Source of the DNA: Lonicera japonica
Taxonomy: Eukaryota; Streptophyta; Magnoliopsida; Dipsacales; Caprifoliaceae
Reading direction: 5' to 3'
DNA length: 64,000 nucleotides
Assembly (NCBI GenBank): GCA_021464415.1
Contig: CM038471.1
Coordinates: 29,237,234-29,301,233 of the forward strand
Part shown: positions 22,401-51,882 of the stretch, piece after piece
Layout: every line of letters begins with the position of its first letter
Position numbering within the stretch: position 1 is the first letter of the stretch
Program-made: the position numbers and the translations under genes
Notes under the pieces: model-generated
Told to the model about the DNA's origin: nothing
Databases searched by the model: none
Seen by the model: the letters and a program-made list of their open reading frames with translations, nothing else

Positions 22401-23571
22401 CACCAATCAGTTCCTGTAAACCCGAATTCCATTCTCGCCTTGTACCTGTGTCATCGATTAACGAGTTAAAAGAATTTTTCTTTTTTCTTTCCGACGCATA
22501 TGCATGGAAAATCTTCGAGTTTGAATCGCCAGCCTCGAGCCAAAAAATCTTAGCTCGCTGCTTCCAAAACTCCGATTGGTTCTTCAACAAACTATACAAA
22601 ACCGAGCGCTCCTCCACAACTCGAGTTTGTGATGTAGCGTCTGTGCGTTTGGAAAGCATAGATATTCGTCTTCTGCACTTACTGATGTCGTTTTTAAATT
22701 GCTTTCTAAGATCCTCACCCCAGGTTTGAAGGGCTGCTCCACACCTTTTTAAACGAGTCCTGAAATCAGTAGTCTCACCCGGTTGCCAATGCTCAAGAAT
22801 AATTTCCCTGCACTTTGGTTCAAAACGCCATATATTCTCGAAACGGAACATTTTGGGGCTTCGATGGAAGTTAACTGGGTAGTGAAGGAGAATAGCAGAA
22901 TGATCTGACGATCCAACCGGGATATTTAGAATTTCTGCCGTCGGGAAACGGTCGTGCCATTGTTTAGATGCCAACGCTCGGTCCAGTTTCTCTTCAGTGA
23001 AGCTTGCTGTCCCTCTACCTTTTTCCCAAGTAAAATTATGCCCCTTCATACAGATATCCGACAACCCACAATCTTCAATTGCCGACCTGAATCCATTTAT
23101 TAAGTTAACAGGGTGTGATAAGCGGCCTCGTTTTTCTGATTGCGCAAGAAGGTCATTGAAATCCCCTATACAACACCAGGGTAGGTTGGAGCTCTGAGAT
23201 AAAGTGCGTAGCATAGACCAGGATGCTCTTCTTCTCTGTCGTTCAGGATACCCGTAAAACCCCGTAAGACGCCAGTCAGACGTATTAGGAAGTGAAATAA
23301 TCACATCAATAAAATTCTTTGTAAGATTAATAAGACGTGTAGTTCCCTTATCCTTCCACATGAATGCTAAACCTCCCCCTCTATTAATACCCTCCACAAA
23401 ACATAAACCACTGAAATTAATTTTACGACGCACATTCTCCACCTTATCCCGACCTACCTTTACTTCAAATAAAAAAACAAAATCGGGTCTCGTTGTGGAC
23501 ACTAAGTCCATTAACTCGCGAACTGTCTTAAGGTTGCCCAAGCCTCGACAGTTCCAACTTAAAGTTGTCAT
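19453..23571 (-). CDS. LINE ORF2: endonuclease / reverse transcriptase / zf-RVT / RNase H polyprotein
   Basis: 1372 codons without a stop. Residues 1-230 form an apurinic-type endonuclease: WNCRGLGN at the start, GDFND near 136-140 and SSDHSAI near 221-226. Reverse transcriptase runs about 485-750: IPKV, RPISLCNVVVKIMTKVVANR, KIDMSKAYDRVEW (catalytic D about 575), GLRQGDPISPYLF near 631 and FFADDSFLFF with the catalytic pair near 681-683. A zf-RVT segment follows near 1010-1090 (LPPKICNFLWR, CSFCN, E.S.HVL..CP). RNase H type 1 is near 1200-1345: KCNVDAS, AEA, EVDSKLV and the RSANCAAHSLAQAA end. The start ATG overlaps the ORF1 stop in ATGA (23568-23571), so reinitiation is likely. It should nick target DNA and prime reverse transcription there. 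Truncation of the element's 5' end means no own promoter. Confidence 0.95.
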   Translation of the reverse strand: MTTLSWNCRGLGNLKTVRELMDLVSTTRPDFVFLFEVKVGRDKVENVRRKINFSGLCFVEGINRGGGLAFMWKDKGTTRLINLTKNFIDVIISLPNTSDWRLTGFYGYPERQRRRASWSMLRTLSQSSNLPWCCIGDFNDLLAQSEKRGRLSHPVNLINGFRSAIEDCGLSDICMKGHNFTWEKGRGTASFTEEKLDRALASKQWHDRFPTAEILNIPVGSSDHSAILLHYPVNFHRSPKMFRFENIWRFEPKCREIILEHWQPGETTDFRTRLKRCGAALQTWGEDLRKQFKNDISKCRRRISMLSKRTDATSQTRVVEERSVLYSLLKNQSEFWKQRAKIFWLEAGDSNSKIFHAYASERKKKNSFNSLIDDTGTRREWNSGLQELIGDYFSDLFTSRRSDSTPILSKVRAKISDQQNYFLSRQYTVEEVRTAVFSMHPDKSPGLDGFNPCFYQNFWGDIGEEVTHFCLMCLNSCSLPDHINDTMIVLIPKVKNPNKLTELRPISLCNVVVKIMTKVVANRLKVVLDSIISEAQSAFIPGRLITDNVMIAFEVGHYLQRRTQGKEGFSSLKIDMSKAYDRVEWQFLEDMMRALGFCDSWVNLTMLFVRSVKYVIRQGDRVVGPIVPSRGLRQGDPISPYLFLICAEGLSTLITDCNRRGLVHGCRVARSAPEVTHLFFADDSFLFFKATMEECCIIKHCLSAYEKASGQQVNFSKSSIRFSTSTPNEVQASISDFLGVPICSNHGQYLGAPSLIGRNKAEVFSYVKEKAWKRLNGWRSKHLSRAGKEILLKAVIQAIPSYVMGVFLLPLRLSDELERMMNSFWWGKKKDGSNSIHWQRWSKLCEKKTNGGLGFREIRLFNLAMLAKQGWRLLSNPQSLCSRIFKARYYPNSSFMEAALGSNPSYVWRSIFASRDLVQAGARRRIGNGKDSKIWDCPWLQDTDQPYIQTPPPSGASDVTVDALFIPGKLEWDSVLISDLFDVRDCEEILSIPLPKIGREDIWRWAWTPKGNYSVKSGYHLLRATGNPIYGPSLTDWSMIWALKLPPKICNFLWRVLNDNLPTKAALLQRRVNIDPTCSFCNMEVETSLHVLVYCPVVQRIWAAAPVRIYASAASVFVNWWNDQRRHLNKQQLEMVAAILWCCWWNRNELTWNGESKPAASVINKATMAVAEFRSLKEKQSRVDTAASTSVSNAVADSTSACTIMAGSGSNRSWVKPASGFIKCNVDASLFSASLKYGFGGLLRDQNGNFLKAIQGWFYGRVSPSLAEAIGLREVLSWLKDKQQHNIQIEVDSKLVADAMNKEADDCSYFGMIIEDCKALLRDLNQCSVSFIYRSANCAAHSLAQAANSLSGWKVWDECPTFIHDVLLSDLS

Positions 23572-28004: not shown

Positions 28005-28109
28005 CTAAAAAAATCATAAGAGATTTTCATAAGTTTAAAAGAAATAAAAAAGAATAATACAATTATTATTTTGGGGCAACAAATTGGTTTTGGATTCGAC
28101 ATTAGATAT

Positions 28110-28958
28110 TGATGGGGTTAAATATTAATTTTACCATTAGCCTACAAAGGTAATTCAACATTTTTTACCTCCGGTAAAATTCTATTTTTACCCCTGGTAA
28201 AATTATATTTTTACCCCCGGTAAAATCTCATTTTTACCTCCACACCTACCACATCTCACTTACCCTACATACCACATCTCACCTACCTCACCTACCTCCA
28301 CCAAAAATGACCATTTTGCCCTTTATTTTTTACCAAATTTACCTTTTTGCCATTCTCCATTTACCTATAAATACCTCCGACCATTCATTCATTCAACACA
28401 CAACAAAAACATATATTCTTTCTCTCTTAAGATCCATTTATCTCTTCTAAGAGATATAAAGCCATTGGCAATACAAATACAAGCTAATTCGGGAAGAAAT
28501 AGAGGAGTCATATACTCTCTCTTTTCATACCCCCCAGAAATAGAAGAGTCTTATACTCTCTATTTTCATATCCCGAAAAATAGAAGGGTCTTATACTCTT
28601 TATTTTCATACTCCAAAAAATACCAACAACCCTTATACACTCTCTCTCCTACACAGTTTATTATTTATTCTGTTGAAATATTTGTAATCATAATTCTATA
28701 CTTATAAATAGAATTAAGGAAATTATAGAAAGAGAAGTTGGTAGCTTGTATTACCATCCAAATTGATCGCCTTTGAGCTAATACAAAGCAAGCACACACA
28801 AAAGGAGGACGTACCACTGGAATAGCATAAGCGCTACCGGGGGAACCTGCCTTAAAAAAAAAGTCATGTGTTCATCATTGCGTCGCATTTATTTTTTTAT
28901 TCACCGATTTTCACTTATTGATTGGTTAATTATCTATCTCTATATTTTGACACCATCA
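28110..28958 (+). repeat. 5' LTR of the non-coding LTR element
   Basis: 849 bp, TGATGGGGTTAAAT...GACACCATCA. It repeats as 30779-30998 plus 51276-51882. A TATA box (TATAAATA, 28366-28373) follows a pyrimidine-rich stretch of 'ggtaaaatctcatttttacc' repeats. A 38-bp unit ('agaaatagaagagtcttata') is repeated about 3.5 times at 28497-28625. The left flank ends in GATAT, matching 51883-51887. Confidence 0.92.
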
Positions 28959-28959
28959 G

Positions 28960-30774: not shown

Positions 30775-30778
30775 CAAT

Positions 30779-30998
30779 TGATGGGGTTAAATACTAATTT
30801 TACCATTGGCCTACAAAGGTAATTCAACATTTTTTACCTCCGGTAAAATTCTATTTTTACCCCTGGTAAAATCTCATTTTTACCCCCGGTAAAATCTCAT
30901 TTTTACCTCCACACCTACCAAATCTCACCTACCTCACCTACCTCCACCAAAAATGACCATTTTGCCCTTTATTTTTATCAAATTTACCTTTTGGCCAT
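30779..30998 (+). repeat. 3' LTR of the non-coding element, first part
   Basis: Matches 28110-28355 but lacks about 22 bp of the 'taccacatctcacttaccctac' stretch. It is interrupted after GCCAT (30994-30998) by the Tat element. Confidence 0.9.
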
Positions 30999-32539
30999 TG
31001 TGAGAATTCGCAAATGCGACCCCCGGGTCTCGTCCCCGTTCGTTTGGGCGTCTGAAACGTCGGAAGGGATCCCGTCATTCCATTTGCTTGGAGTTTGTGT
31101 TGATAATTCATATCGGGTATCCCTACGTCTATTCTAGATGCAAAGGGGTTCGTTCAGAGTCGCCAGTACGTTTTACGAGAAAACGGACAAAAAAGGTTGT
31201 GTAAGAGAAAAGGCTACCGATAAGCCTTTCTTTACACGTTTGTCTGCGAAACCAGGATTCTATGGGGTTCGGGAACTATATTACGGTTTGGGAAGGTGTT
31301 AAGCACCCATTCCGCCCTTTCGGTCTCTAGTGGTCTTATATGTTTATTCTATGTTGAAAAACTTGGATGCTTTTACTGACAGTCTACTACTTTTTAAATG
31401 AAAACCCTAATTTCTGGGGGAAAACAGGAAAGGGATAGAAACCTTTGTGTTCCTAGATCCGATGTTTTATTTATTGAAAGATGTAAATACAAATGACAAA
31501 ACCTTTTATTTTGAAAGAGTATTCCGTATTATTTCCTCAGATAATGACGGTTTTCTCATGTTGTGATTACTTTTGTAAAAGTTCGGATCTTGTATCGGGA
31601 CTGATTTAATATGGAACTAGAACTCTTTGAGGAGAGTTATCAGACATGTCGCAGTCTATAGAGAAGACGGGATATGTTGATTTTAATTCCTAGATAAGTC
31701 GTATCAGTCCGGGTTTTGAAAACAGAATTTTATCCGGATGATAACGTATTTACTCTTCTGGTTTTGCAAAATGGTTTTATCAGGGTCTTTGGTTTTGAAA
31801 ACGGTAGACTATTTGTAACTTGGCAATAAGTTTATTCAAATAAAACGTGGACAGAATAACAGAAATAAAACAAGTACACAGATATCTTAATTTAAATACT
31901 ATAAGGGACTTTCTTTACCTTCCCGACGAGAATAATAATAAGAAAGAAAATATGATTCGGCGGAGAGATTTTCGGCGATAATAATCTTTTCCTTCTTCAG
32001 ATATTTCCGAGAATTCGATTCCAGAGACGGGACACGTCGAGTGTCGGGAATAGATCCGATAATTCTTCAGAGATAAGATGATAATATAAAATGCTTGATA
32101 ATAAAATCAGACTAAAGCTCCAGATTTTCCAGATTCCCGTTGCCGCCTCGAACCCTTGGGGGTGTTGGCCTATTTATACTGCTCGGGGAGGATTGTCGCG
32201 CGACATTTCCCCAAGAAAGGCAAGTGTCGCGCGACATATCAGTTTGTCGCGCGACATTCCTGTATGTCGTGCGACAAACGGCTGAAGTGATGGGTCCTGA
32301 CACTGTGATGTGTCAGAAAGTGATTGGTCGGGTGCAGAGAGGAATTGTCGCGCGACATAATGGGAATGTCGCGCGACAATGTGATATGTCGTGTGACAAT
32401 CCTTCATAAAAAAAGGTTTGTCGCACAACAAACCCTCCTGGGGTAGTTTCGGGTGCTCGGGTGGGTCCCGGACTCCAAAAACAGTAGTTCTCATAGGTCG
32501 TTAGGGTTCTTGCGGGGGTCACGGATCGGGGTGTCTACA
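30999..32539 (-). repeat. 3' LTR of the Tat/gypsy element (left copy)
   Basis: 1541 bp; read on the plus strand it is TGTGAGAATTCGC...GGGGTGTCTACA. It differs from 48167-49398 at only about 14 positions by eye over some 1.2 kb, mostly transitions, which says the element is young. On the minus strand a TATA box (32171-32178) is preceded by the palindrome array described separately. Confidence 0.95.
32171..32430 (-). promoter_or_regulatory. LTR promoter: TATA box with array of eight TGTCGCGCGACA-type palindromes
   Basis: The minus-strand TATA box TATAAATA is at 32171-32178. Upstream of it in the reading direction are exact TGTCGCGCGACA sites at 32194-32205, 32225-32236, 32245-32256, 32346-32357 and 32367-32378, and variants with one or two changes at 32265-32276, 32387-32398 and 32419-32430. 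Within the two groups of three the start-to-start distance is 20-21 bp, about two helical turns. The 12-bp site is a perfect palindrome with three CpG dinucleotides, so it could bind a dimer and be sensitive to methylation. The same arrangement occurs in the other LTR copies (49362-49373 and 50591-50602 onwards). Confidence 0.8.
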
Positions 32540-34182
32540 GACCCTCTCGACTCAAGCTCCTTGCTTGCAAGGAATTGAGGCGACTGGAAGAGACCATGAT
32601 CCATGGCTCCCGCATGAACTCTAAAGAAGTGTTTATGCAAAAAAAAGGTGCTTGTGAATGTCTCCGGAAAGGGCTTCGTGTTTGGTTTTGCCTCTGGAGA
32701 GGGATTTTGTTACCTCATTGCCTCTTTCGAGGGCTTTGATTTGCTCCACTTGCCTCAGATGGGAGGACTACCATTGATCCTTTTTTGCGCCTCAGGTGGG
32801 AGGACTACCATTGTGCCTCAGCTGGGAGGACTACCGTTGTGCCTCTCTGGGAGGGCTTCACCTCAGGTGGGAGGACTACCGTTGTGCCTCTCTGGGAGGG
32901 CTTCGCCTCAGGTGGGAGGACTACCGTTTGTGCCTCTCTGGGAGGGCTTCGCCTCAGGTGGGAGGACTACCGTTTGTGCCTCTCTGGGAGGGCTTCGCCT
33001 CAGGTGGGAGGACTACCGTTTGTGCCTCTCTAGGAGGGCTTCGCCTCAGGTGGGAGGACTACCGTTGTGCCTCTCTGAGAGGGCTTCGCCTCAGGTGGGA
33101 GGACTACCGTTGTGCCTCTCTGGGAGGGCTTCGCCTCAGGTGGGAGGACTACCGTTTGTGCCTCTCTGGGAGGGCTTCGCCTCAGGTGGGAGGACTACCG
33201 TTTGTGCCTCTCTGGGAGGGCTTCTAGATCTGTAAGAAGAAGGAAAATTGCCTCTGGGAGGACTTTCATGAGTAACTTTTGCCTCTGGAGAGGGCTTGTG
33301 ATTTGCCTCTGAAGAGGGCTTGTGTTTGTGATTTGGTAAAATTTAATTTGTCTCTCTTTAGACTGCTAGAGTGAGAGAGAGAGGTTTTCGTGATGGTGAA
33401 AAGAGCTCCTCGAGGTCTAATCTTATCTGAATGTCCGCTTTTCTGTATCTTTCTTGAATTTTGTTCTTATGTTTTCCTCGAGTGAGGATACTTTTCTCAG
33501 AAGGCAGTCTTCGATTTTATTTGTTTTCCGCAGCGTGATGATTCGAGGATTTTCCAAACCATCTCTTCTGTATCGTGCTGAAAAGAAAATTTGTCTGAAA
33601 GTCCAATCTCTGATCTCTGCTTTCTTCTCAGTTTCTCTTTTTGGTGGGCCCAACATCGTTTTCTGTTTTTCGATGCCCTTATTTCTCCCTCTTTTGGGAA
33701 AGACTTTTCCTGGCCTTCTCTGTTTTTGACCAGGAGTCTTTTCATCCCTTTGTCGTGATCAGGAGCCTTACTCACCCTAAAACGAAGCCCTGAGCCGGTT
33801 TTGGCCTAGCTATCACTTTTGGTGTGGCTCTCCCTGTCAACCTACATTTCTGTTTCTCTCGCTTGCTTTGGGCGCTCATGCGGGTTTCTTCTCTTTTCTA
33901 CTCTTTCAATTTTTTCTATTCCCGTCTTATCTCTCTGTTCTGCTTTTTCTTATTTGATGGTCTCGGTCCTTCTGTGAGATTAGAGACTACTTTTAATCGT
34001 GGCACTCTGTTCTTGCATTTTTCAGAGAGATGATTTGGAAGTTTCCTCTTTGGAATCTTTATCATGGGTGTGCGGTTTTAGTAATAATTTTTTTTTTTTT
34101 TTTTGAAAACTGCTCCTCGGAAGTCCTCCTGCAGGAGATAAAAATGAGAAAAGAGGTCAAAAAATCAGGGGAGATGGGAGAT
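32540..34182. other. Non-coding part of the Tat element next to the 3' LTR
   Basis: It contains the 46-bp minisatellite (32755-33228) and related loose copies of 'gcctctgg.gagggctt' at 32640-32760 and 33240-33330. The rest (33350-34180) has only short frames with no recognised domain. The purine tract for plus-strand priming should lie just right of 32539; on the minus strand the sequence there is 'gagtcgagagggtc', a weak candidate. Confidence 0.6.
32755..33228 (+). repeat. 45-46-bp minisatellite, about 11 copies
   Basis: The unit is gcctcaggtgggaggactac followed by cg(t)ttgtgcctctctgggagggctt. Copies start near 32757, 32793, 32817, 32861, 32906, 32952, 32999, 33044, 33090, 33135 and 33181; the first two are shortened or variant. 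Because unit lengths alternate between 45 and 46 bp, no single reading frame is maintained, and the overlapping frames of up to 195 codons here are not genes. Confidence 0.92.
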
Positions 34183-34266
34183 TGTCGCGCGACACTTCGG
34201 TGGGGAGCTCTTTGTCGCGCGACAATGTGACCATTTGTCGCGCGACAAACTGATCCACTATATAAG
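34183..34266 (+). promoter_or_regulatory. Promoter of the antisense PMD gene: three TGTCGCGCGACA sites and TATA box
   Basis: Exact palindromes lie at 34183-34194, 34213-34224 and 34236-34247. The TATA box TATATAAG is at 34259-34266, 12 bp after the last site. A CT-rich leader ('ctctcccttctctttctctc') runs from about 34295 to the ATG at 34404. The arrangement mirrors the LTR promoter on the opposite strand. Confidence 0.75.
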
Positions 34267-34403
34267 CCTCTTGCTGAGCTCATTCCACCTCATTCTCTCC
34301 CTTCTCTTTCTCTCTCTAGCTCTCTTTCTCTCTTCTTTCTAGCGCGGAAGCTCTGCCGTGTTTCCGACTTTTCCGGCCTTTTCCATATATTCTACTTATA
34401 CCG

Positions 34404-37400
34404 ATGGACCCTGCTCATCCCGACAGACTGGAGGGCGACCAGGAGGAGGTCACCTTCACTGACGCTCAGGGCGTTCTCCGCTGCAGCCCTCATCATGATG
34501 ACTGGGCAGACTTGGATTGGTATGATGAGGATGGGATAGACCGCGGCCGGGCGGTGGTCTATCGAGATGCTATCCGAGCTGCTCCAGTCCCGGATGTCCC
34601 GTGGCTCTTGATGGAGCCTATCTCTCACGAGATTCGCCGTCGATCTCTGGTATGTCTTCTTTTTGTGTATTTATCTATTCTGTTTCTTGTCGTTTCCTGT
34701 ATTCATTTTCAATAATGTTAGTATGCATGTCTGCCTAGGAATAACGCCCGATTTTAGCGAACACATACTTTTACCTGTGATGCCTCTTAGTTTTTAGGAA
34801 AAATACATAATCTACCCCTATAACCCTATAACTCTTATAATTACACCAAGGTACCCTCAGGTTTGGAAAATTACATAATTTACCCTTATAGCCCTATATC
34901 TCTTATAATTACACCAAAGTACCCTCATGTTTTGGAAAATTACATATTTTACCCCTATAACCCCATATCTCTCATAATTACACCGAAGTACCCTCAGGTT
35001 TTTTGGAAAATTACATATTTTACCCCTATAGCCTTATAACCAAAGTACCCTCAGGTTTTTGGAAAATTACATAATTTACCCTTATAACCCCATATCTCTC
35101 ATAATTACACCAAAGTACCCTCCGGTTTTTTGGAAAATTACATAATTTACCCTTATAACCCCATATCTCTCATAATTACACCAAAGTACCCTCAGGTTTG
35201 GAAAATTACATAATTTACCCCATATAACCCTATAACTCTCATAATTATACCAAAGTACCCTCCGGTTTTGGAAAATTACATAATTTACCCTTATAACCCC
35301 ATATCTCTCATAATTACACCAAAGTACCCTCAGGTTTTGGAAAATTACATACTTTACCCCTATAGCCCTATAACTCTCATAATTACACCAAAGTACCCTC
35401 AGGTTTTGGAAAATTACATATTTTACCCCTATAGCCCTATAACTCTCATAATTACACCAAAGTACCCTCAGGTTTTGGAAAATTATAGAATTTACCCTTA
35501 TAACCCCATATCTCTCATAATTACACCAAAGTACCCTCAGGTTTTGGAAAATTATAGAATTTACCCTTATAACCCCATAACTCTCATAATTACACCAAAG
35601 TACCCTCAAGTTTTGGAAAATTACATATTTTACCCTTATAACCCCATATCTCTCATAATTACACCCAAGTAACCTCAGGTTTGGAAAATTACATAATTTA
35701 CCCCATATAACCCTATAACTCTCATAATTACACCAAAGTACCCTCAGGTTTTGGAAAATTACCTAATTTACCCTTATAACCCCATATCTCTTATAATTAC
35801 GCCAAAGTACCCTCAGGTTTTAGAAAATTACATAATTTACCCTTATAACCCCATATCTCTCATAATTACACCAAGGTACCCTCAGGTTTTGGAAAATTAC
35901 ATAATTTACCCTTATAACCCCATATCTCTCGTAATTACACCAAAGTACCCTCAGGCTTTGGAAAATTACATGATTTACCCTTATAACCCCATATCTCGTT
36001 CTCTTGTCTGTAGTGGGTTGGCCCGGGTTGGGGTTCTCCCAACACTATATCTTCGGAGTGGCGATGGGCACCGGCCCCTGTTCAGGAGTTGATTCTTGCG
36101 ACTCCTTTTGGCTCCCTCTTCGACGCCCTCCCAGAGCTGGTTTCTAGGGCGGCAATTTTGGTGCCGGCACTGGCTTGCCATTGGTGGGATACTACTCATA
36201 CCTTCCATTGGAGCTGGGGTGAGATGACGATGACACCCCTCGATCTTTTTGCTCTGACCGGGATCCCTTCAGGGGGGTCCCCATTCAGATCGATGTCCCT
36301 TTGCGTCTGACGGCAGAGGGTATTGTTAGTGCGCTTGGATGGTTCCCGGAGCAACGGAGTTCTGGTGATACGATTCCTCGGGGTGTCTTGGTTACGCGGC
36401 TAGCCACAGAGAGAGCTCGGCTAGTTGCTTCAGGGGTTCCTATGACCCATCAGGAGGCGCACCAGTATGCCCGTGTCCTTCTTCTGACACTCCATGATTT
36501 ATTCGAGGCTCGTGGTGGGGACACGGCTCATCTTTGGTGGTTGCCCTATCTTCGGGACTTCAGCCTCATGTTTGACTATGACTGGGGAGGCTTCATTCTT
36601 GCAGTCCTCTATGATGCCATGGACCAGGTCTCTCGCCATTTAGCCCTGAACCTCAAGGGCTTTTCTCTGCTGTGGGAGGTACATACTTTAGTCCTTTTGT
36701 CTTTGCTTCAGTTCTTTACATATTACCTGTTGATCATTGCTGATTTCTTTTATCTTTCCTTTTCAGAGTTGGTTTGTTGCTTATACCCGCCTGGGTCGCG
36801 CCCAGGTGGATCTCCTCGTTGAGAACGAGGATCAGTTCCCTTTTCTCCGCCGATTCATTGCGGGGAACTACAGGGCTCCCTATGTATACCGGACTCGGGA
36901 GACCGGAGCTGCTGCTGTCCACGATCTGCGGGAGGAGCAGGTAAAATACTTTTAGTTTTCTTGCTCTTCAATAGTTAGATAGAATATATAAATTACTGAA
37001 AATAAAAAACTTGTTCTCTTTTCAGGTTGAGTGGGCCCCTTGGGGTGATCTGGGTCTCCATTATGGGTATGGTCGTGCTCTGACCGCCTCGAGGACTAGG
37101 CGGCTTATCCGGGATGAGTACGGCCTTCTCTTCTACTTGGGCGAGAGGGTCATTCGCCAGCACACGCCGTCCCAGTGGCCTCGTGTTCCATTATTCCCTC
37201 ATGTTCTGATGAGGCGGACGGGCGAGATCGATCCGGTGACGGTGCAGGCCTTGGTCGACGGACTCGGCTTCCAGACGTTCGTCGAGGAGGGAGACTACGC
37301 AGTTTTTGCTGCCCGTTATCTGATGAGGGAGCCGAAGGGGACTCGGGGACGGGTCTTCTATGAGAGGTACCGGGCATTGGGAGGTGATCCCCATTATATA

Positions 37401-38586
37401 CGGGGACAGACTCATTTAGCTAGGGTGGTTCCAGGTCATCTGCCACCTGTCCCTGATCAGAGGGACAACATTCTGGATTCCGAGGATGAGGACCCCGAGG
37501 GAGAGAGGGATGTTCCTACTGCGGCCGAGGGCAGTGGTCGGCCAGAGGGCGAGGGAGGCGATGCGACAGCGGTTCCGAAGCCGTCACCTCAGGCGACACC
37601 TGTGAGGGAGCAGCATGCTGAGGGTTTCGAGTTTCCCACCGGCCCTTCTGTGTCTCCGGGGGTCCTTTTTGCTGCTGCTGAGGCTGCTAAGGGGAGAGCG
37701 GGATTGTCTGAGAGGTCCTGGGAGCCTACGGACCTTGGGGCGGATTACGAGCAGTTCGCGGACTCCTCTAGCTGCGGTGGCTACTCCTTCTAGTGGGGTA
37801 CCTCCTTTGAGGGCGACGGCCATAGTGGATCCTCCAGGGGTCCGTACCTACGCCACATTGACTCCTCTTCCGGCGACTGTCATGGGTCCTCCTGCCCGAT
37901 CTCTAGGTTTCGGGGGTTCTTCATCCCGGCCTCCCTTGTTCCCGATCCGTGAGGAGGGCGGGTCCACTTCTGCTGGTGTTCCGGCAGGGTCGTCTATTCC
38001 GTGGGTAGATCTACCCCCACTCCCCAGGGACATCTCTTACGTTGGCGCTGGATTACGTCGATATCCTGTCCCGGAGTACCCTCTTCCTGAGGATACTTTT
38101 GACTATTTGGGTGGTCGCCCTGATGACGAGGTACTTTCTTTTACCTTTTCTTGATACCCTTATGTCTATCTCTATCTATTTTGACTGTGCTGATTCTCTT
38201 TTATGTCCTTTTTACAGAGAGTGAGCGTACGGGTGGCAGATCTTCGGGCTTGGCACGCCCAGTACCTTTACAGCTGGAACCTGCTCTAGTATGTCGGTTG
38301 AGACCCTCCAGCCTATATGCGTGACTACCAGAGGGCTATTGACGTCTCCCTATGGCCGGATGACCCCCTGACTTCTTCTCACGCCCGGACGGATTCTCGG
38401 AGGAGCAGTAGTCGGACTTCTAGGCGTTCCCGATCGTCGGTGATTCGTCCTACGGCACCGATCCCGTCCACGGGGCCTTCTCAGGCAGCAGTTCCTCCTG
38501 TTCCTGGCGTCCCAGTTGTTGATCCTACTCCCGAGGAGGGCTCGGGTGATAGTGGGAGCGTGTCAAAACGGGTCCGTATAGATTAG
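34404..38586 (+). pseudogene. Antisense plant mobile domain (PMD) gene of the Tat element, broken
   Basis: Five exons can be inferred with GT-AG borders in phase: 34404-34649, 36014-36678, 36777-36940, 37026-38130 and 38218-38586. Exon 2 holds the PMD core: WWDTTHTFHWSWGEMTMTPL, LFALTGIP, LWWLPYLRDF, then LKGFSLLWE. Exon 3 starts SWFVAYTRLGRAQVDLL. The C-terminal half is Pro/Ser/Gly-rich with an acidic stretch (DSEDEDPEGE) and ends in a basic SRRSRSS and KRVRID tail. Damage: a one-base frameshift at the G-run 36272-36277, a frame change near 37700-37790, and stops at 38287-38289 (TAG) and 38299-38301 (TGA). It reads opposite to gag-pol from its own TATA promoter. Intron 1 contains a 69-bp minisatellite. 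Its function in the element is unknown. Confidence 0.85.
34795..35999 (+). repeat. 66-69-bp minisatellite, about 17 copies, in intron 1 of the antisense PMD gene
   Basis: The unit reads ggttttggaaaattacataa, tttacccttataaccccata, tctctcataattacaccaaa, gtaccctca. Successive starts at 35333, 35402 and 35471 give a 69-bp period; a few units are shorter. Since 69 is divisible by three, long spurious frames appear on both strands (35082-35609 minus; 35268-35672 and 35751-36092 plus). They are not genes. Confidence 0.93.
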
Positions 38587-38928
38587 TTTTCCCTTTTCTG
38601 CACTTAGCGTTAGTTCTGGACAGATATGTATTTATTTTAGATATGTTTAGACGGATATATTTAGTCTTTTAAAAACTGTTCTTTTATTGGATTCATAAAA
38701 TATCTTTATCCGTGTTTGATTATACTTTTATTCTCTGTGTGTGAAAGATATATACATATATATATATAAGAGTCGGCGACTTTTAGAAGTCATACCTTGT
38801 AGTGTAGTGATACCTTTCCTGTAAAAAAAGAGCAAAGTGAGAACAAGAAAGCATCCAAAAATGATTCTTTTGGCAAACATGACTGCTATGTGTAGGAAGA
38901 ACAAAATTAGGGTGACCCCAAAGGGGTT

Positions 38929-39006
38929 TCTCGCGCGACAATCCCCCCTGGATATGGGTTTGTCGCGCGACAAATAGGTACAGGTCCCTCTTTTTTGCTA
39001 TAAATA
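38929..39006 (+). promoter_or_regulatory. Promoter of the antisense DUF7745-like gene: two palindromes and TATA box
   Basis: One variant site (TCTCGCGCGACA, 38929-38940) and one exact TGTCGCGCGACA (38961-38972) precede TATAAATA at 38999-39006 by 27 bp. The ATG at 39045 follows 38 bp after the TATA box, so the leader must be very short or the start lies very near the ATG. Confidence 0.7.
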
Positions 39007-39044: not shown

Positions 39045-40301
39045 ATGTCTTCTTATCGCACAAAATCTGATTTTTCTTATGTCAATGCTCGAGATGCTTT
39101 GATATCTTCCGAAAATGGTCTGAACTTTGGTGCCTTTCGTCCTTTAGCGGGCTGGTGCCATCGTCCCGTCGATTTTTCCTTTCTGTTAGGTGCCTTGTAT
39201 TTCTGGAGTCCTGCGGACCATCTCTTCCGCTTTGGACTAGATGAGCTCTGCCCGACCTATGAGGAGTTCTCCTGGTTGTTACGTTCTGAAGTTCGTCTCC
39301 CGATGGCAGTTCCCATAGAAGAAATCGGTCCCCGCGACATGCTAATTGCTCTGTTAGCCATTTTCCAGGTGGCCTGTGATGGTTTCATTGCCGACGGTCT
39401 TCTTGACCTCCAAAAGATGGTGAGGTTCTTTCATCGTTATGAAGATAGGGCCTCTTACGGCGTGGGGTGTACTGCAGCGGCCCTGATTTGCCTGGTTTCT
39501 GATATGCTGCTGGTGACGGGTTCTTCCCGTGTTGATCCGACTATCCTGAGTCTGATTTACCAGGCTAAAAATGGGGAGTCTATAGTGCCGATCATTCTTG
39601 TAGAGACCCTGAATGGTCTTGATGATGTTCAACGGGGGGCCTCGCCCTTCTTCCGGGGGAGTCCGCGTCTGCTATACATGTGGCTGCTAGAGCGCTTTCG
39701 ATCGGTGGGTTTCAACGGAGTTCGGCTCGACAATCCGACTCATTTCTTCCATCGGCCTCTCTTTGGTGCTTTGACCATGTCTTCCTCTGATTGGACGGTG
39801 TGGTTTTCGGAGAACTTTTGGGCTATCCGGTGGAACATTCCTTGGTGGAAGCTGAGGGCAATGGTACTTAGCACTGGGGGTCAGAACTACGTTCGGCTCC
39901 GTGGGCTCTGGTTTACTTCCTTTTATCTCCCTGGACGTCTTCTTCGGCAGTTTAATATTCCTCAGGAGGTTCCCCTTGGTCTGAACAACTTCTCTTCTGA
40001 GTCTAAATTTGTGACCCCACATGTTTCTTTATCGGTAGAGAGGATGTGGCGTGCTCGACTGACTCGTCAGTTCAACTATGCCCGTTTTGGTATTACCCGG
40101 CCCCTCCGGGCTGATATTATCCGCTCTTGCTGGCAATCTCTGGAAGGAGAATTGATCGACGACCCCTTTCAAATGGAGTGGTTCCGGTTCATGGATACTG
40201 AGGCTACTGATGATAATATTGTTTTTGCATATCAGATCTTGGACGAAGCTCGGATCGACTTGGCTATTGAGGACCCAGTGTGGCCAACCCCTAGGGATTA
40301 G
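39045..40301 (+). CDS. Antisense PMD-like (DUF7745-like) protein of the Tat element, intact ORF
   Basis: 418 codons, single exon, no stop. The N-terminal part has FWSPADHLFRFGLDELCPTYEE at residues 54-74, the pattern of plant transposon-associated proteins of the DUF7745 type, distantly like the PMD motif 'FHLPFGEMTITLEDV'. The middle is rich in F, L and W (residues 100-330), the end acidic. No signal peptide, membrane anchor, zinc finger or catalytic triad is apparent. It converges on the end of pol (40527), and an AATAAA signal lies at 40387-40392. The start is the first ATG after its TATA box (38999). It is the only undamaged gene of this element. The family name is from memory of the motif; biochemical function is unknown, and a role in binding or regulating element DNA is only an idea. 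Confidence 0.75.
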   Translation: MSSYRTKSDFSYVNARDALISSENGLNFGAFRPLAGWCHRPVDFSFLLGALYFWSPADHLFRFGLDELCPTYEEFSWLLRSEVRLPMAVPIEEIGPRDMLIALLAIFQVACDGFIADGLLDLQKMVRFFHRYEDRASYGVGCTAAALICLVSDMLLVTGSSRVDPTILSLIYQAKNGESIVPIILVETLNGLDDVQRGASPFFRGSPRLLYMWLLERFRSVGFNGVRLDNPTHFFHRPLFGALTMSSSDWTVWFSENFWAIRWNIPWWKLRAMVLSTGGQNYVRLRGLWFTSFYLPGRLLRQFNIPQEVPLGLNNFSSESKFVTPHVSLSVERMWRARLTRQFNYARFGITRPLRADIIRSCWQSLEGELIDDPFQMEWFRFMDTEATDDNIVFAYQILDEARIDLAIEDPVWPTPRD

Positions 40302-40526: not shown

Positions 40527-43500
40527 CTATTGATAATACTTCTTCAGTCGATCCATGTTGACTGGTGAATGTAGTAACTGCCCATCCAAATCAGTGAGCA
40601 TAGCGGCACCTCCTGTATCGATTTCTTTGACGATGTACGGCCCTGTCCACTTCTGCCCAAATTTACCCCTCGGATCTCTGGCTGGTTCTCGAATTTCTTT
40701 CAATACAATATCGTTCTCATTGATACCCCGAGTCCTCACTTTTTGGTTAAATGCTCGAGCGATTCTCTTCTGATACCCCTGATGGTGGTATGCGGCTTTC
40801 AATCTCTTTTCATCTAGTAGGGCTAGCTCGTTATAACGTGCCTGGACCCACTTCAGTTCATTGACTTGATTTTCTAGCATTACCCTGAGGGAGGGGACTT
40901 CTAACTCAACAAGGAGGACTGCTTCCATCCCGTATGTAAGAGAGAACGGGGTTGCCCCGGTGGAGACCCTCTCGGTGGTGCGGTATCCCCACAATGCATA
41001 AGGTAACTTCTCTGGCCAGTCTCGACAGGTGTCGGTCATCTTGCTTAGGATATTCTTCAGATTTTTGTTGGCGGCTTCAACTGCCCCATTGGTTTGTGGC
41101 CTGTATGGCGAAGACCTGTGTCTGGTAATACCGTATTCTTCCATGATGGTATTAGCTTCTCCTTCAAAGTGGGTGCCGTTATCTGAGATGATCTCGTGTG
41201 GGACCCCATATCGGCAAACAATATTCCTTTTGATGAATCGAGCTACTTTTTTGGCATCCAGGGTCTGGTAAGACTCAGCTTCTACCCATTTGGTGAAGTA
41301 GTCGATGGCCACTAGTATGAATTCATGGCCGTTGCTGGCTTTGGGCGAGATCTTCCCAATGACGTCGATTCCCCAGGTTGCGAAAGGCCAGGGAGCAGTC
41401 ATGGTGTATAACTCTTTTGGAGGAAGCTTCTGGGATTTAGCATAAATTTGGCACTTGTGACAACGGTGTACGTGATTAGCGCAGTCGGTTTGCAGAGTAG
41501 ACTAGAAATAACCTTGTCTGATGATTTTGCGGGCAAGTGTATGTCCGCTCATATGAGGTCCGCAATCGCCCCCATGTATCTGATCCATTACTCTGACTGA
41601 TTCTTCTTCGGTGAGGCATTGAAGATGAGTCCCGTCGTAGTTCCTTTTATACAATCTTCCGGCACAAAGTATGAACCCTGATTCTAATCTTCTGAGCGTG
41701 ACCCGTGTTTTCTTGTCTGTTTTCTCAGGATACTGATGGTTCTTCAGCAGGTTCCAGATGTCGTAAAACCAAGTGGTTGAATCCCCTTCCCCTTCATTCT
41801 CTACCACCAAGGCCGTGCAGTGTGCTGGTTCTGATTTCTTTTGCACCGTAAGAGTTATTTCTTCCATTCCTTCAGGAATATCGATCATAGATGTCAGGGT
41901 TGCCAGTGCGTCAGCAAAACTGTTCTGAGACTTGGGGAGGTAGTAAAACTCCGTATGCTTGAACTTTCCCGCGATATCCTCCAGTCGGGCGTGGTAAGGG
42001 ACTAATTTCTCATCTCTGATCTTCCATTCTTTCAGAACCTGGTGAACCACTAGTGCTGAATCTCCGTATACCTGTATCCTCTTTATACCCCTTTGAAGAG
42101 CTATCTCTAACCCGAGTATGCAGGTTTCATATTCAGCCATGTTGTTGGTGCAGAAGAAGTCCAGACGATATGATACCGGGGAGTGAGTTTGGTCTGAAGA
42201 GACTAACAGGATACCTATCCCGTTTCCATTCCGATTGGCGGCCCCGTCAAAGTACAACTTCCAGTCTTCATCGGTTTCGACATTCATGATGGTTTCGTCT
42301 GGGAACTCGACTTCTTCTAGCATGTCTCCCAATATTGGATTGTGGGCCAGGTAATCAGCTATGATCTTGCCTTTGACTGCCTTCTGGGTCATGTAGGTGA
42401 TGTCGAATTCGGAGAGTAAAAATAGCCATTTTGCCATTCGGTTCGAGAGAGCCGGTTTCTCGAAGAGGTATTTCAACGGATCAATCCGTGATGCCAGGAT
42501 GACTGAGAAAACTAGCATGTAGTGCCGTAGTTTCTGTGTTACCCAGACGAGAGCGGTGCACAATTTCTCCAATGATGTGTAGTTCATCTCAAATGGGGAC
42601 AGTTTCTTTCTGAGAAAATAGATGGCCTGCTCTTTCCGGGTATCAGTCAGGTGTTGGGCTATCATTGCTCCCACGGCTGAATCAGTGACGGTTAGGTATA
42701 AAATTAAAGGTAGTCCGGTTTGCAGTGGGGCTAATACTGGGGGGTTGGAGAGATATTCTTTGATTCTATCAAAAGCTTCCTGGCACTGACCGTCCCACTC
42801 TCCCAGTGAAGATTTCCTCAGGAGTTTGAAGATGGGCTCGCAAGTCTGAGTGAGCTGAGAGATGAACCTACTGATGTACTGCAGATTACCCAAAAATCCA
42901 CGGACTTCTTTCTCAGTACGAGGTTTAGGCATTTCTTGGATAGCTTGAACCTTGGCAGGGTCTACCTCGATTCCTCTCTTACTGACAACATAACCTAGGA
43001 GTTTTCCCTTGGTCACCCCGAACACACAGTTCTGCGAATTGAGTCTCATCTGGTACTGGCGGAGCCGGTCGAAGAAGGTTCGCAGGGCTGGTATGTGACC
43101 TTCCCTCTCCTTTGATTTGATTATCATGTCGTCCACATACACTTCTACCTCTTTGTGGATCATATTGTGGAAAATAGCGGTGGCCGCTCTCTGATAGGTT
43201 GCCCCGGCGTTCTTCAGCCCGAATGGCATAACGATGTAGCAGTATGTTCCCCATGGTGTGATGAATGCCGTTTTCTTCTGGTGATCCGGGTGCATCTTAA
43301 TCTGGTTATACCCGGCAAACCCATCCACAAATGACTTCAGGGCATGGTTAGCAGTGTTATCTATTATCAAATCGATGTTGGGCAATGGGAAATCGTCTTT
43401 CGGACAAGCTTTGTTAAGATCCCGGTAATCCACACACATGCGGACCTTCCCATTTGCTTTTGGAACGGGCACAATGTTGGCTAACCATGAAGGGTAATCG

Positions 43501-45464
43501 ATCACCCGCAAAAACCCTACACTCAGTTGTTTCATCACTTCTTCCTTTACCTTTAGGGACCATTCTGGCGTAAGTTTCCTTAACTTTTGCTTGACAGGTC
43601 TGAACTCCGGCTTGGTATGTATCTCGTGCATGACTATCTGACTGTTCAATTCTGGCATATCCGCATAAGACCAGGCGAAGACATCCACGTACTCTTTCAG
43701 AGTTTGTGTGAATTCCACTTTTTCTGTTTCACTCAGACTTGTCCCAATGCGGACCTCCTTTCTTTCCTCTTCTGTTCCGAGGTTAATTTCGAGAGTGTCT
43801 CCTTCCTCGCTCTGTATACGCTGTTCCTCCCGTTCAGGGTGTTCGTTCAGTCTTTCTAACTCCTTATAAGCTATTACAGAATTACAAATAACAGGATAAC
43901 GCAAAACAGAGTTTTCTTCATTAATAATAGTGTTTACAGGTACAAGTTTAAAAAGTAAATCTAGGAGTGGCTCTTTCCTAGCCTTACTCTCACTCTCACC
44001 TCTCACCCTTACAATTTCACTCTTTTTCCCTTCACTTTGGTAGTCTGGATCAGCGTATATCAGGTGTACGGGGTCATCCCTTGGCTCATCGTCCCTTAGA
44101 GCCATGATGTCGAAGAGATTTCCGATCATTTCTTCCTCATCATTCTTCTTGTCTTCATTTCCTTCTTTCAACCCGATTGTTAACTTGGTGGAGAAACTGT
44201 GTTTGATGCTTTCTTTGACATATAGGTCCTCTTCATAGAAGATTTCCCATCCCGGTAGGTTCTCTCCGTCGCTGTTTCTCCAAGGTTCCTGAAAACCGCA
44301 AAAGGGGAAGTCCTCTCCTTCTTTGACGAAAAATCCGTTCAAGGAGCTGAAACTCGGATACTGATGCCCTCGGCTCCTTTTTGGCTGATCGTCTTCTTCA
44401 GTGTGTTGGTACCCCAAACCTTCCCTTTCGTACCTCGTTACCGGTTCCAAGGCTTGAAGTAGTCCTGATTGTCCCATTCCCAGGCCGGCTCCAGGTAAGT
44501 ATTTCATCATTCTCAGCATATTTGTAATCTTGGTGCTGAGACCGGGAATATTGTCAGGGGGAAGATATTCGATTATCTGAGTGCTGAGAGTTTGTACTTG
44601 AGGCTCGTAAGAAAAGCCTCCTAACTGTATGCTCTGGCTCCCGATTCCCAAAACAGGTAACTCCATATCCGCCAAGGTCCTTTCAGGATCTCCTTGGATG
44701 GTAATTATGTTCCCTTTAAACGGTATCTTGATCTTTTGGTGCAAGGAGGAGGGGAGTGCTCCTATGTCGTGTAGCCACGCTCTTCCCAGCAGGAGGTTAA
44801 AACTGGAGGGAATGTCTATGATTTGGAACTCGGCCGGAAAGTTCCCAGGACCGACCATGAGGTCAAGCTTCAGAGAACCCAGAATGGCCCTTCTGGTATT
44901 GTCGTAGGCCCTGACAGTCACAGCTGATGGGGAGAGCTCTGAGTCCAAGATGCCTAGACATATGGCTGTCTTTAGGGGGCAGACATTTATGGTTGATCCG
45001 TTGTCGATAAGGACTTGTGGTAGGATTTTTCCTCGGGTTCGGACGGTGATATGGAGAGCCAGGCTGTGTTTCCTCCCCAATGGAGACAGATCTTCATCTG
45101 AAAATGACAAACTTCTTTGGACAGTAAGTGACCCAATCATATTTGGCAGTTGTTCGGGTGTGGAGTCTGGTGATATCACGGCCTCGTCTAGAAGTTTGAT
45201 GAAAGCAGTCCTGTGGGGTTTGGAGGCAACCAAGAGGCCCCAAATGGTGATGTGTGCCTGGGTCTTCTTCAACTGCTCAAGCACTCTATCTTCTCCCATT
45301 TCCTTAGGTGGTAGTGTTTTCTCAGCATCCGGTGGTGGTTGGTATACCCTTCCTGAACGGGTGATTTGTTGGATCCAAAGGGATGCCGGGTCTGATTCCT
45401 CTGAAGTTTCTGATGATTCCGGCTCTGTCAACCAACTGAAAGTCCCGGGGGAGGTTTCTGTCAT
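40527..45464 (-). pseudogene. Tat/gypsy pol: protease, RT, RNase H, archaeal-type RNase H, integrase; one stop
   Basis: One frame of 1645 codons broken once by TAG at 41502-41504. Order: aspartic protease (LIDNGSTINVCP), a G-patch-like segment (GAGLGMGQSGLLQ), RT (YPSWLANIVPVPKANGKVRM, MPFGLKNAGATYQRA, VYVDDMIIKS), RNase H, then a second archaeal-type RNase H (LYFDGAANRNGNGIG, NMAEYE, VYGDSALVV, FADALA). Integrase follows: H/C zinc finger interrupted by the stop, then WGIDVIGKI, ISDNGTHFEG and a conserved Glu in NGAVEAANKNLKN; no chromodomain. The stop needs only one G-to-A change from Trp. Pol is out of frame with the preserved gag end, with an indel near 45535-45545. The two RNase H domains place it in the Tat lineage. 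Confidence 0.95.
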
Positions 45465-45528
45465 ACAGATTGTCTCCCTGGGGGGGGTTTTGGGATTTCC
45501 ATGACTGTTTCTTCTTATTCTGGGTCCA

Positions 45529-47421
45529 TCATATCCCAGATTTTTTGGGATTGGTTTTGATTGTAAGTGGTTGTAAGATCCCCTTATTTGCCTTTCCTAA
45601 ACCCTGCCCGGGTAGGAAGTTCATTTTGGCCATCCATTGGTCAATTATGGGATTGAGGCCTGGGGCAACTTGAGCCTTTGCTGGTAGTACAACGGGTGCC
45701 CTGTAGGCTGGGTCATCTCGAATGAGCCCCACGGGATCGAAGCCTTCTTCACCAGTGGTTAAGGCATTAATCCCCGCAGGTGGAACATGGATAGGAAGTG
45801 GATTATTAGTAACATTGGGCCCGCCGGGTGCGGGGATGGTTCCGGCTTCGATGAGGTCTTGAATACGATGGCGAAGGGCCAAACAACGCTCCGTGTAATG
45901 CCCTGCATCTTGATGATACGCACAATTCTCATTCATTCTCCATGTGTTTGGAATAGGGTTTGGTGGAGGGCGCGGGTTGAGTGGAGTGATTAGTCTGGCC
46001 TTTCGGAGCAGCTCCACACTTTTTACCAGGGTAGTGGGAAGGGTGCAGAAGTTTCTCCTTTTCTTGTCCTCGGTGTTTGAAGGGCCCCCTTGTGCGGGCC
46101 AACTCATCGGATGTGGCTGTTGTGGTTGTTGAAAAGGGTTCTGTTGATAGGGGTATGAGTTTATTTGATTCACGGCTGTAGTGGCTGTCTTTCTCCCGGT
46201 GTATGCGGTTTTTTTGGTATCGGTTTCAGCTTTTTTGGCCAATTCTTCCTCTACTTGTGACCCCATACTCAACAGGGCCCTGAAGTGTGGGAATACATGC
46301 TTTCCCATTCAACTTAGTACGGCTGGAGTGAAGTTCTTCTGAATGATTTCCAGCTGTTCTTATTCATCGGGTCGTTTGAGCATTTGGGAGGCCATCTCCC
46401 TCCAGCGAGTGACAAAGTCGCTGAAGCTTTCTTTCTCGCCCTGTTTGGCCATTTCCAGGTGTTTACGGGTAATTTCCAAATCCTCGTTGGACCCGTATTT
46501 GGTCATAAATTCCTTGACGATATCTCCCCAAGTCTGCGTGTGATGCCTTTCTAGACCAAAAAACCATCTCAGGGCGGCCCCCGTGAGAGTCATATGAAAG
46601 GCATGTGCTAATTCTAGCTCTCCACAACCGGACACTTGCATGGATCTGATGTAGGACTGTAGGTGGGTTTTAGGGGGCGTGGTTCCAGTGAACTTGGTGA
46701 TGGAAGGGAGTTTGAATCCCTGGGGTAATCTTGCTTCTGGGTAGAGGGAGAAGGCATTCATATCTGTGATCTCGTCTGCTCCTTTTATTAGGGAAACCCC
46801 CTTTTGTAGGACCCTCATCTGTTCTTTCAGCTTCTTCATTTCCTCACTCTCTCTTGACACCTCGTCGGGCTGTTCCCGTGCTATTACCGATTCTACATAT
46901 ACAACCCGAAGTCGGTTGATGTCTGGGTATTCATTAGGGAGGGCTGCAGGGGCCGGTGGTGGAATGGGTCTCGCGGGAACTTGTGGCCATGGTTGGTATT
47001 GGGGGTCAAAGCCGGGTTGTACTTGGGGTTGTGGCCAAACTATGGGTGGCTCTTACTGTTGGTAAGTGGGGCCTGAATCCGGGGCCCATTGGTTCTGATT
47101 GTTGGGGTCGGTTTGAACGGGACCAGCTACGATAGGGCCTGTTTGAGGTGGATTGGTTCCTTGAACTGGGGGAGGTACTTGTGAAGACTGTCCTTGGTTC
47201 GGATCTCGATTCGGTGGTAGTCGATCAAACCCCGGTGGTGCAGTTCGTTCGGCTGATAATTCTTCTATTCGGATCCGGGTACCCTGTTGCTCGTTCGTGA
47301 GGTTAGCCAGATCCCTGCTGACGGTCATGAGTAAACGGTGCATTTCGGCTAGGGTTGGCTGAGCTGATGATGCCTCGGCTAGGCTCTGATCTGTCTCTCG
47401 ATTCTCACGTTCATCGGCCAT
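45529..47421 (-). pseudogene. Tat/gypsy gag with three in-frame stops
   Basis: About 630 codons in one frame, interrupted by TAA (47053-47055), TAA (46360-46362) and TGA (46309-46311), all reachable by a single C-to-T or G-to-A change from Gln or Trp codons. The N-terminus is Q/P/N-rich. The retrotransposon gag domain (capsid-like) lies in the middle: YPEARLPQGFKLPSITKFTG, HAFHMTLTGAALRWF, GDIVKEFMTKYG and FSDFVTRWREMASQML. Near the end is the Cys/His motif CAYHQDAGHYTERC typical of Tat-type gag, then a G-patch-like GQGLGKANKGILQPL. It would form the particle; it is dead in this copy unless stops are read through. Confidence 0.92.
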
Positions 47422-48147: not shown

Positions 48148-48165
48148 TCCCTAGCGGAGTCGCCA
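48148..48165 (-). promoter_or_regulatory. Primer-binding site of the Tat element
   Basis: On the minus strand TGGCGACTCCGCTAGGGA begins two bases after the end of the 5' LTR. Ogre/Tat elements are described as using a tRNA-Arg primer with a very similar sequence. It fixes the orientation of the element: gag-pol is sense, PMD and DUF7745-like genes are antisense. Confidence 0.8.
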
Positions 48166-48166
48166 C

Positions 48167-50959: not shown

Positions 50960-50964
50960 GTCGC

Positions 50965-51275
50965 GCGACATTCCTATATGTCGTGCGACAAACGGCTGAA
51001 GTGATGGGTCCTGACACTGTGATGTGTCAGAAAGTGGTTGGTCGGGTGCAGAGAGGAATTGTCGCGCGACATAGTGGGAATGTCGCGCGACATACCAGTG
51101 ATTGTCGCGCGACAATGTGATATGTCGTGCGACAATCCTTCATAAAAAAAGGTTTGTCGCACAACAAACCCCCCTGGGGTAGTTTTGGGTGCTCGGGTGG
51201 GTCCCGGACTCCAAAAACAGTAGTTCTCATAGGTCGTTAGGGTTCTTGCGGGGGTCACGGATCGGGGTGTCTACA
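50965..51275 (-). repeat. 5' LTR of the Tat element, outer part
   Basis: Continues the LTR after the solo insertion, matching about 32250-32539. Relative to the left LTR it lacks one 20-bp palindrome unit ('gcgacatatcagtttgtcgc'), a gain or loss of exactly one array step. Confidence 0.9.
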
Positions 51276-51280
51276 GCCAT

Positions 51281-51882
51281 TCTCCATTTACCTATAAATA
51301 ACTCCCACCATTCATTCATTCAACACACAACAAAAACATATCTTCTTTCTCTCTTAAGATCCATCTATCTCTTCTAAGAGATATAAAGCCATTGGTAATA
51401 CAAATACAAGCCAATTCGGGAAGAAATAGAGGAGTCATATACTCTCTTTTAATACCCCCCAGAAATAGAAAAGTCTTATACTCTCTCTTTTCATACCCCA
51501 AAAAATAGAAGGGTCTTATACTCTCTATTTTCATACTCCAAAAAATTCCAACAACCCTTATACACTCTCTCTCCTACACAGTTTATTATTTATTATGTTG
51601 AAATATTTGTAATCCTAATTCTATACTTATAAATAGAATTAAGGAAATTATAGAAAGAGAAGTTGGTAGCTTGTATTACCATCCAAATTGATTGCCTTTG
51701 AGCTAATACAAAGCAAGCACACACAAAAGGAGGACATACCACTGGAATAGCATAAGCGCTACCGGGGGAACCTACCTTAAAAAAAAATCATGTGTTCATC
51801 ATTGTGCCGCATTTATTTTTTTATTCACCGATATTCGCTTATTGATTGGTTAATTATCTATCTCTAGATTTTGACACCATCA
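51281..51882 (+). repeat. 3' LTR of the non-coding element, second part
   Basis: Resumes after the Tat element and its GCCAT duplication and matches 28356-28958, including the TATA box region and the 38-bp repeats. It ends ...GACACCATCA, followed by GATAT (51883-51887), the target duplication. Confidence 0.92.

Follow-up and report, generated by a model that had tools for sequence, protein, structure and literature searches.

The closest described precedent for the arrangement reported here is found in the Sireviruses. According to the available text of the report on them, they have many copies of short palindromes with CpG directly before the TATA box of the long terminal repeat (LTR), and the same palindrome also stands upstream of an extra gene, with 77 of the 79 copies in the linker placed before the envelope-like (ENV-like) gene (Bousios et al. 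2010, PMC2829016). In the VANC/VANDAL system, as far as the accessible parts of the papers describe it, a short motif is dense in the non-coding parts of one transposable element (TE) family and rare elsewhere, and it is gained and lost by tandem repetition, like the sites described below (Hosaka et al. 2017, PMC5735166; Sasaki et al. 2023, PMC10398659). Retrotransposons of the Tat/Retand group have antisense genes between pol and the 3' LTR that are suspected regulators, such as gene23 of Grande, with its own promoter and a nuclear protein (PMC7264820), and the open reading frames (ORFs) of TRP28 (PMC11963269); the available portions of these two papers call the role of such genes unknown. 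We analyzed a 64-kb stretch of the genome of the honeysuckle Lonicera japonica (hereafter, the window), which contains a Tat-type Ty3/gypsy element. Between its pol and 3' LTR lie two genes that run antisense to gag-pol, namely a plant mobile domain (PMD) gene and a gene for a protein of 418 amino acids (418-aa). One 12-bp palindrome, TGTCGCGCGACA, precedes the TATA boxes of the LTR and of both genes, and it is most likely a family-private operator for a putative dimeric factor.

The palindrome has 19 exact sites in the window, where 0 are expected and none appeared in 100 shuffles. When up to two mismatches are allowed, the number of sites rises to 33, against 0.40 expected, and at this tolerance the element has no site beyond its LTRs, a nested solo LTR and the two internal promoters. 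The original prediction, which held that a single palindrome marks all three TATA-box promoters, is borne out here as well as in four further elements and at 20 of 20 further promoters of the 418-aa gene. The features concerned are the following, in window coordinates.

30999-51275, minus strand: Tat-type Ty3/gypsy element of about 20 kb, with the target site duplication (TSD) GCCAT at 30994-30998 and 51276-51280 and with reverse transcriptase (RT), RNase H, second RNase H and integrase domains
30999-32539, minus strand: 3' LTR, from LTR comparison
32171-32178, minus strand: LTR TATA box, TATAAATA on that strand, 15 bp from the first motif site
32194-32430, no strand assigned: eight motif sites (5 exact, 3 variants) upstream of the minus-strand LTR TATA box, from the motif scan
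34183-34247, no strand assigned: three exact motif sites of the PMD-gene promoter, from the motif scan
34259-34266, plus strand: PMD-gene TATA box TATATAAG, 11 bp after the last site and kept in L017, L023, L024 and L026
34404-38586, plus strand: antisense PMD gene with predicted introns, its frames broken in the window copy (PMD, 37.0 bits for 36017-36301)
38929-38972, no strand assigned: two motif sites (1 variant, 1 exact), 32 bp apart, of the 418-aa-gene promoter, from the motif scan
38999-39006, plus strand: 418-aa-gene TATA box TATAAATA, 26 bp after the second site
39045-40301, plus strand: antisense 418-aa gene, encoding a weak PMD-superfamily protein, from domain search and genomic matches
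40527-46860, minus strand: gag-pol ORFs (gag, G-patch, RT, RNase H, second RNase H, integrase), from domain search
48167-49398, minus strand: inner part of the 5' LTR, with the likely primer binding site adjoining at about 48150-48166
49399-50959, minus strand: solo LTR of the same family, nested inside a motif copy of the 5' LTR (49394-50964 with its TSD, GTCGC)
50965-51275, minus strand: outer part of the 5' LTR, with a motif array, from LTR comparison
54759-54824, no strand assigned: three motif sites of a diverged solo LTR (1 exact, the other two with 1-2 mismatches), adjacent to the LTR's own TATA box on the minus strand

The eight LTR sites, the first of them 15 bp from the TATA box, were found as predicted, and all three variants among them are CpG-transition forms. 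Four of their spacings (20, 20, 21 and 20 bp) agree with the 20-21 bp given in the original prediction, but two others are 31 and 32 bp and there is one break of 81 bp. The PMD promoter has the three sites ascribed to it, with a gap to the TATA box of 11 bp rather than 12 bp. Similarly, the 418-aa promoter does have one variant site (TCTCGCGCGACA at 38929) and one exact site (at 38961), but the gap is 26 bp and not 27 bp. The exact motif had been noticed elsewhere only in related LTR copies, and indeed the remaining exact sites of the window all lie in LTRs, at 49362-51114 and, in the diverged solo LTR, at 54791.

Comparison with Tat elements supports the assignment of the retrotransposon. The LTRs are about 1.54 kb long and have TG..CA ends and a short TSD, as expected of this group. 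The Tat (Ogre/Retand) lineage is recognized by a second, archaeal-type RNase H between RNase H and integrase, and the available text of the same source gives a PMD for 57% of Ogre elements (PMC6317226). In the ORF at 41502-45464, RT_RNaseH at 918-1020 is followed by RVT_3 at 1077-1189, and rve is in the next ORF. The LTR-LTR divergence of the element is small (K = 0.0115 and 0.0214 in two blocks), and hence its insertion is probably young. The insertion site is also present uninterrupted as a paralogous copy about 2.6 kb away, with the empty site at 28349 (28108-28959 versus 30777-30998 plus 51276-51883). Two tandem arrays were observed: one with a 69-bp unit in about 17.6 copies within the first predicted intron of the PMD gene (34793-35997), and one with a 46-bp unit in about 9 copies with 97% matches (32815-33224) within the plus-strand ORF 32648-33235, which adjoins the 3' LTR.

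When pieces of the PMD gene were compared with PF10536, that at 36017-36301 scored above the cut-off of 34.9 bits and that at 36301-36681 scored 21.5 bits; the three other pieces gave no PF10536 match. The only Pfam match of the 418-aa protein is PMD at 16.1 bits, which is below the cut-off. Among 5.8 billion proteins, searched in a way that detects only relatives with short words in common, one homologue was found, P0001 of Lonicera macranthoides; it is 93% identical and scores 24.7 bits for PMD and 12.3 bits for DUF7745, both below the cut-offs. The label "DUF7745-like", under which the 418-aa protein had been introduced in the original prediction, is therefore weak. The best-scoring 100 matches for this protein in the genome (itself included; 100 of 4,436 candidate places scored) are at 95% or more, and 81 of them have no internal stop, the window copy being one of these. 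Ten loci among these best 100 matches, L054 included, have an equal protein score, which suggests a recent burst. The honeysuckle genome has at least 162 PMD (PF10536) matches at E ≤ 0.001, with 117 of 4,838 candidates scored, and other PMD-bearing families may have motifs of their own.

We then counted the motif in the L. japonica 'Sijihua' assembly (886 Mb in 967 scaffolds; longest scaffold 116,908,140 bases, N50 79,566,881). There are 29,561 exact TGTCGCGCGACA sites, compared with 1 for the reversed, non-complemented sequence and 7.7 expected from composition. The sites were inspected in 14 regions of 10 kb, taken around the places at the head of the list, which fall within the first 4.54 Mb of a single scaffold. 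These regions hold 53 exact sites, and every one of them aligns to the element family (41 in LTRs, 9 in PMD promoters and 3 in 418 promoters). Six arbitrary 10-kb stretches contain no exact motif, and one of them (L030) has a decayed LTR with three sites of 1-2 mismatches. This count, which was proposed together with the original prediction as a check against random DNA, shows the motif to be far from common by chance. In viral contigs, neither the paired motif nor a relative of the 418-aa protein was found. In the open-licence literature searched, nothing on TGTCGCGCGACA as a retrotransposon motif appears among the papers listed, and the string itself turns up in one paper, on a chicken methyltransferase.

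Both internal promoters are present in four further elements of the fetched DNA (L016-L018; L023; L024; L026-L028). The alignment of these relatives, also proposed with the original prediction, turned out in its favor: all four keep the TATA boxes and have exact or 1-2-mismatch sites upstream of all three, with internal promoters that are 80-95% identical. The first LTR site and the TATA box were both found in 12 of the 15 loci given, and they are 15 bp apart in 11 of these and 16 bp apart in the remaining one. The 418-gene promoters were read in 20 of 99 further listed copies, and in each of the 20 the sites stand 26-27 and 58-59 bp before TATAAATA. Of their 42 sites, 37 are exact. In L051 and L054 (C5 and C7), there is a third site at 90 bp, i.e. 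one more 32-bp step. The TCTCGC variant of the window's 418 promoter is present in none of the 20 other copies read.

The motif at the 418 promoter changes about three times more slowly than its flanks. In the 20 copies and the window, there are 7 substitutions in 504 motif positions, compared with 95/2068, 35/966 and 34/797 in neighboring stretches (0.036-0.046) and 0/168 in the TATA box. This comparison covers copies of common descent and is not a formal test of constraint, but the slower change suggests it. The arrangement very probably also reaches a second species. P0001 begins upstream of the 418-aa start, and its first 48 residues are identical to the read-through of the L051/L054 promoter except at the stop of those copies. 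These N-terminal residues include LSRD and CRAT, which read-through of both 418-promoter sites would give, and hence the two-site arrangement is very probably present in L. macranthoides.

Neighboring sites, counted with up to two mismatches in the window and 14 loci, are 20-23 bp (n = 54), 30-34 bp (n = 34) or 42 bp (n = 1) apart, with no other spacing up to 60 bp. These values correspond to about 2, 3 and 4 helical turns. For nine spacings in the window (all but the 81-bp break), phasing at 10.5 bp gives R = 0.83 and p = 0.001 relative to a uniform distribution over 18-36 bp; the helical phasing that had been pointed out is supported as a pattern. Array sizes change in similar steps, by 20-22 bp units between LTRs and by a 32 bp unit at the 418 promoter. 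The 12-mer is preferentially preceded by GWT and followed by AWC, with 217 of 218 cases having A or T at position 2 of the flank, whichever the side. Beyond the 12-mer, the flanks show no more pairwise symmetry than shuffled partners do.

A cooperative dimeric factor near the core promoter would require just such features: dyad symmetry, whole-turn spacing, a set place before the TATA box and use on both strands. We propose, with a probability of roughly 45%, that a single dimeric factor binds TGTCGCGCGACA and thereby couples the expression of gag-pol and of the antisense genes, and that this factor is probably a PMD-type protein of the element itself. A dimer would bind each site, as its dyad symmetry implies, and adjacent dimers, if the phasing is a guide, would lie on one face of the DNA and cooperate. 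Being palindromic, the site could work either way round, with the LTR reading leftwards and the antisense genes rightwards. The motif's privacy to the family in the sampled regions and its location at the promoters of the element's own PMD-type genes point to the element's own protein. Such a protein, acting at the promoters of its own genes, would close a feedback loop; if it were sensitive to methylation, silencing and expression would be mutually exclusive. Its effect may be activation, anti-silencing or repression. Among host PMD proteins, MAIN and MAIL1 are required by a set of genes with the "DOWN" motif in their promoters (PMC7156037), and Gypsy elements are described as the sole source of the PMD-A clades (PMC5418596). 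The available text of the former report leaves open the binding of "DOWN" by a PMD complex, and that of both leaves open DNA binding by PMD proteins in general. The more elaborate version of the proposal is less likely than not: a self-reinforcing, methylation-gated regulon of some 29,000 sites, run by a sequence-specific PMD-type factor of the element's own, which would be an LTR-retrotransposon counterpart of anti-silencing by VANC.

Several observations weigh against this proposal. The gap between the nearest site and the TATA box differs between the promoters (15 bp in the LTR, 11 bp for the PMD gene and 26 bp for the 418-aa gene), and only one of the three TATA-side sites in the diverged solo LTR is exact. 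The 418 promoters of L023 and L024 have no exact site, only sites with 1-2 mismatches. The spacing count takes in many homologous arrays, and the phasing loses significance when it is computed from the three internal-promoter spacings by themselves (p = 0.31). Given the kinship of the sampled copies, retention of the motif partly reflects descent, and the 14 sampled regions, being the first listed at one scaffold end, are not a random sample. As for the proteins, the PMD frames are broken in the window copy, which would therefore have to rely on other copies or on the 418-aa protein if the PMD protein is the factor. Unfortunately, the 418-aa protein has no recognized DNA-binding domain in Pfam, and its structure prediction, with a predicted local distance difference test (pLDDT) score of 31, is too poor for use.

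A serious rival to the element-encoded factor, though on balance an unlikely one, is a host transcription factor, for instance a TGTCNN-binding auxin response factor (ARF) or one of the CGCG-box or E2F type, that was borrowed as an activator at all three promoters. Plant retrotransposons commonly use host factors. The TGTC and GACA halves of the motif fit the ARF element TGTCNN, and these outer parts change less than the central CpG does. Gaps between neighboring sites, measured for comparison with ARF spacings, are 8-11, 18-20, 22 and 30 bp (n = 114); those of 8 and 18 bp (25 and 4 of the 114) would read as the everted repeats ER8 and ER18, which are ARF-bound spacings in DAP-seq work. Most gaps, however, are 9-11, 19, 20 or 22 bp, and the accessible literature gives ER0 and ER13 as the spacings for AtARF5. 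Furthermore, the halves of the motif abut and form an inverted repeat without a spacer (IR0), whereas the available text on ARF binding reports IR5-IR9, with IR7/8 as the best; reporters with TGTCGC do show expression domains of their own, according to the same source (PMC10690724). Finally, with 53 of 53 sampled sites in the element and about 8 chance sites expected from composition, there is no host regulon of the exact site in the sample, a result that applies to the exact motif only and leaves degenerate host sites outside the search.

The decay of the sites bears on a second alternative. Among sites with up to two mismatches, CpG transitions account for 57 of 74 mismatches, mostly at the central CpG, and the outer TGTC and GACA are more stable. 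Since their CpGs decay by transition, the sites have probably been methylated in many copies, and the pattern fits methylation of silent copies together with tolerance of the motif's center. The suggestion that the CpGs make the site a methylation switch gains from this pattern only in part, as decay does not show that methylation regulates the site. The same footprint would be expected if the palindromes were mainly a target of or a barrier to silencing, through methylation, an origin of small interfering RNA (siRNA) or a repressor, rather than sites of activation. The palindromic boxes of Sireviruses are tied to CpG islands in the available text (PMC2829016). The fixed distance to the TATA box and the slow change at the 418 promoter argue instead for a role that is kept in active copies, and we consider silencing as the main function improbable.

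We also compared the internal promoters with the LTR after masking the motif. The likeness of the four pairs was reached by 20, 94, 496 and 366 of 500 shuffles. The promoters thus have no clear similarity once the motif is masked, and the common part is therefore the motif itself. The strongest of the comparisons (418 promoter versus 3' LTR; 20 of 500) is borderline and would agree with the motif having spread, with little function, through tandem duplication and short cassettes copied between the LTR and the internal region. LTR arrays do vary by 20-22 bp units, the 418-promoter array varies by one 32-bp unit in L051 and L054, and two LTR loci, L022 and L029, resemble the PMD promoter at 79-80% identity in an alignment of 76 columns, motif copies included. 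Nevertheless, the other three comparisons are reached by shuffles more often, and passive copying leaves unexplained both the placement before three TATA boxes and the low substitution rate. Cassette copying as the whole explanation was rejected, being unsupported in three of the four comparisons and borderline in one, and we regard spread with little function as quite improbable.

A role in nucleic-acid structure, such as dimerization of the genomic RNA, or as a recombination or integration hotspot, is very improbable: all sites would fall in the 3' part of the genomic RNA and a solo LTR of the family has inserted inside one site, but a single insertion is no trend, the position of the sites tracks TATA boxes on both strands, and the preference of LTR elements for palindromes in 12 plant genomes is, in the available text, weak overall and absent in the nested set (5.2 vs 5.3, p = 0.50; PMC6911290).

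Two other features of the window stand apart from the element. A large imperfect inverted-repeat complex, with arms about 89-94% identical, occupies 4633-8754, and an uninterrupted minus-strand ORF of the long interspersed nuclear element (LINE) type at 19453-23571 encodes 1372 amino acids with endonuclease, RT, zf-RVT and RNase H domains.

In comparison with the known systems, the honeysuckle element shares with the Sireviruses the palindromic repeats before the LTR TATA box and before an extra gene, and therefore the use of one palindrome at both the LTR and an internal gene is a known principle. The Sireviruses are Ty1/copia elements with a CGG-CCG core and a sense ENV-like gene, and the available text states that no internal promoter has been found conclusively (PMC2829016). 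In contrast, the honeysuckle element is a Ty3/gypsy Tat element with the motif TGTCG-CG-CGACA, in which CGG is absent, and two antisense PMD-type genes, each with a TATA box. Within the open-licence literature searched, and as far as the searches go, what is new relative to the Sireviruses is the different superfamily and motif, the two antisense genes with their own TATA boxes, the helical phasing and the genome-wide count. The Tat/Retand antisense-gene region likewise bears tandem arrays, but the accessible parts of the Grande and TRP28 reports describe no common promoter motif; in honeysuckle, one of the two genes is a PMD gene and the other a weak PMD relative (PMC7264820, PMC11963269).

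The likeness to MAIN and MAIL1 lies in PMD proteins being linked to a promoter motif common to several genes (PMC7156037), with PMD also found in Gypsy elements (PMC5418596). However, the targets of MAIN and MAIL1 are host genes (PMC7156037). One exact, countable site now ties the role of the antisense genes to the question of DNA binding by PMD proteins, with two candidate proteins and a family of many copies. If the element's own PMD-type protein binds the site, this would be the first defined DNA target for a transposon-borne plant mobile domain; should the binding be due to a host factor instead, a large honeysuckle retrotransposon family would be under its control.

As with VANC, a single TE family has the motif at high density in its non-coding DNA and almost to itself, judging from the genome-wide count and the sampled regions. 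However, VANDAL is a DNA transposon, its motif is non-palindromic and has one orientation, and both binding and loss of methylation were shown by experiment there (PMC5735166, PMC10398659), whereas a protein that binds the honeysuckle motif is putative. VANC/VANDAL is an analogue in behavior only. Were the element's own protein to bind the palindrome, a private regulatory code would be carried by LTR retrotransposons as it is by VANDAL elements.

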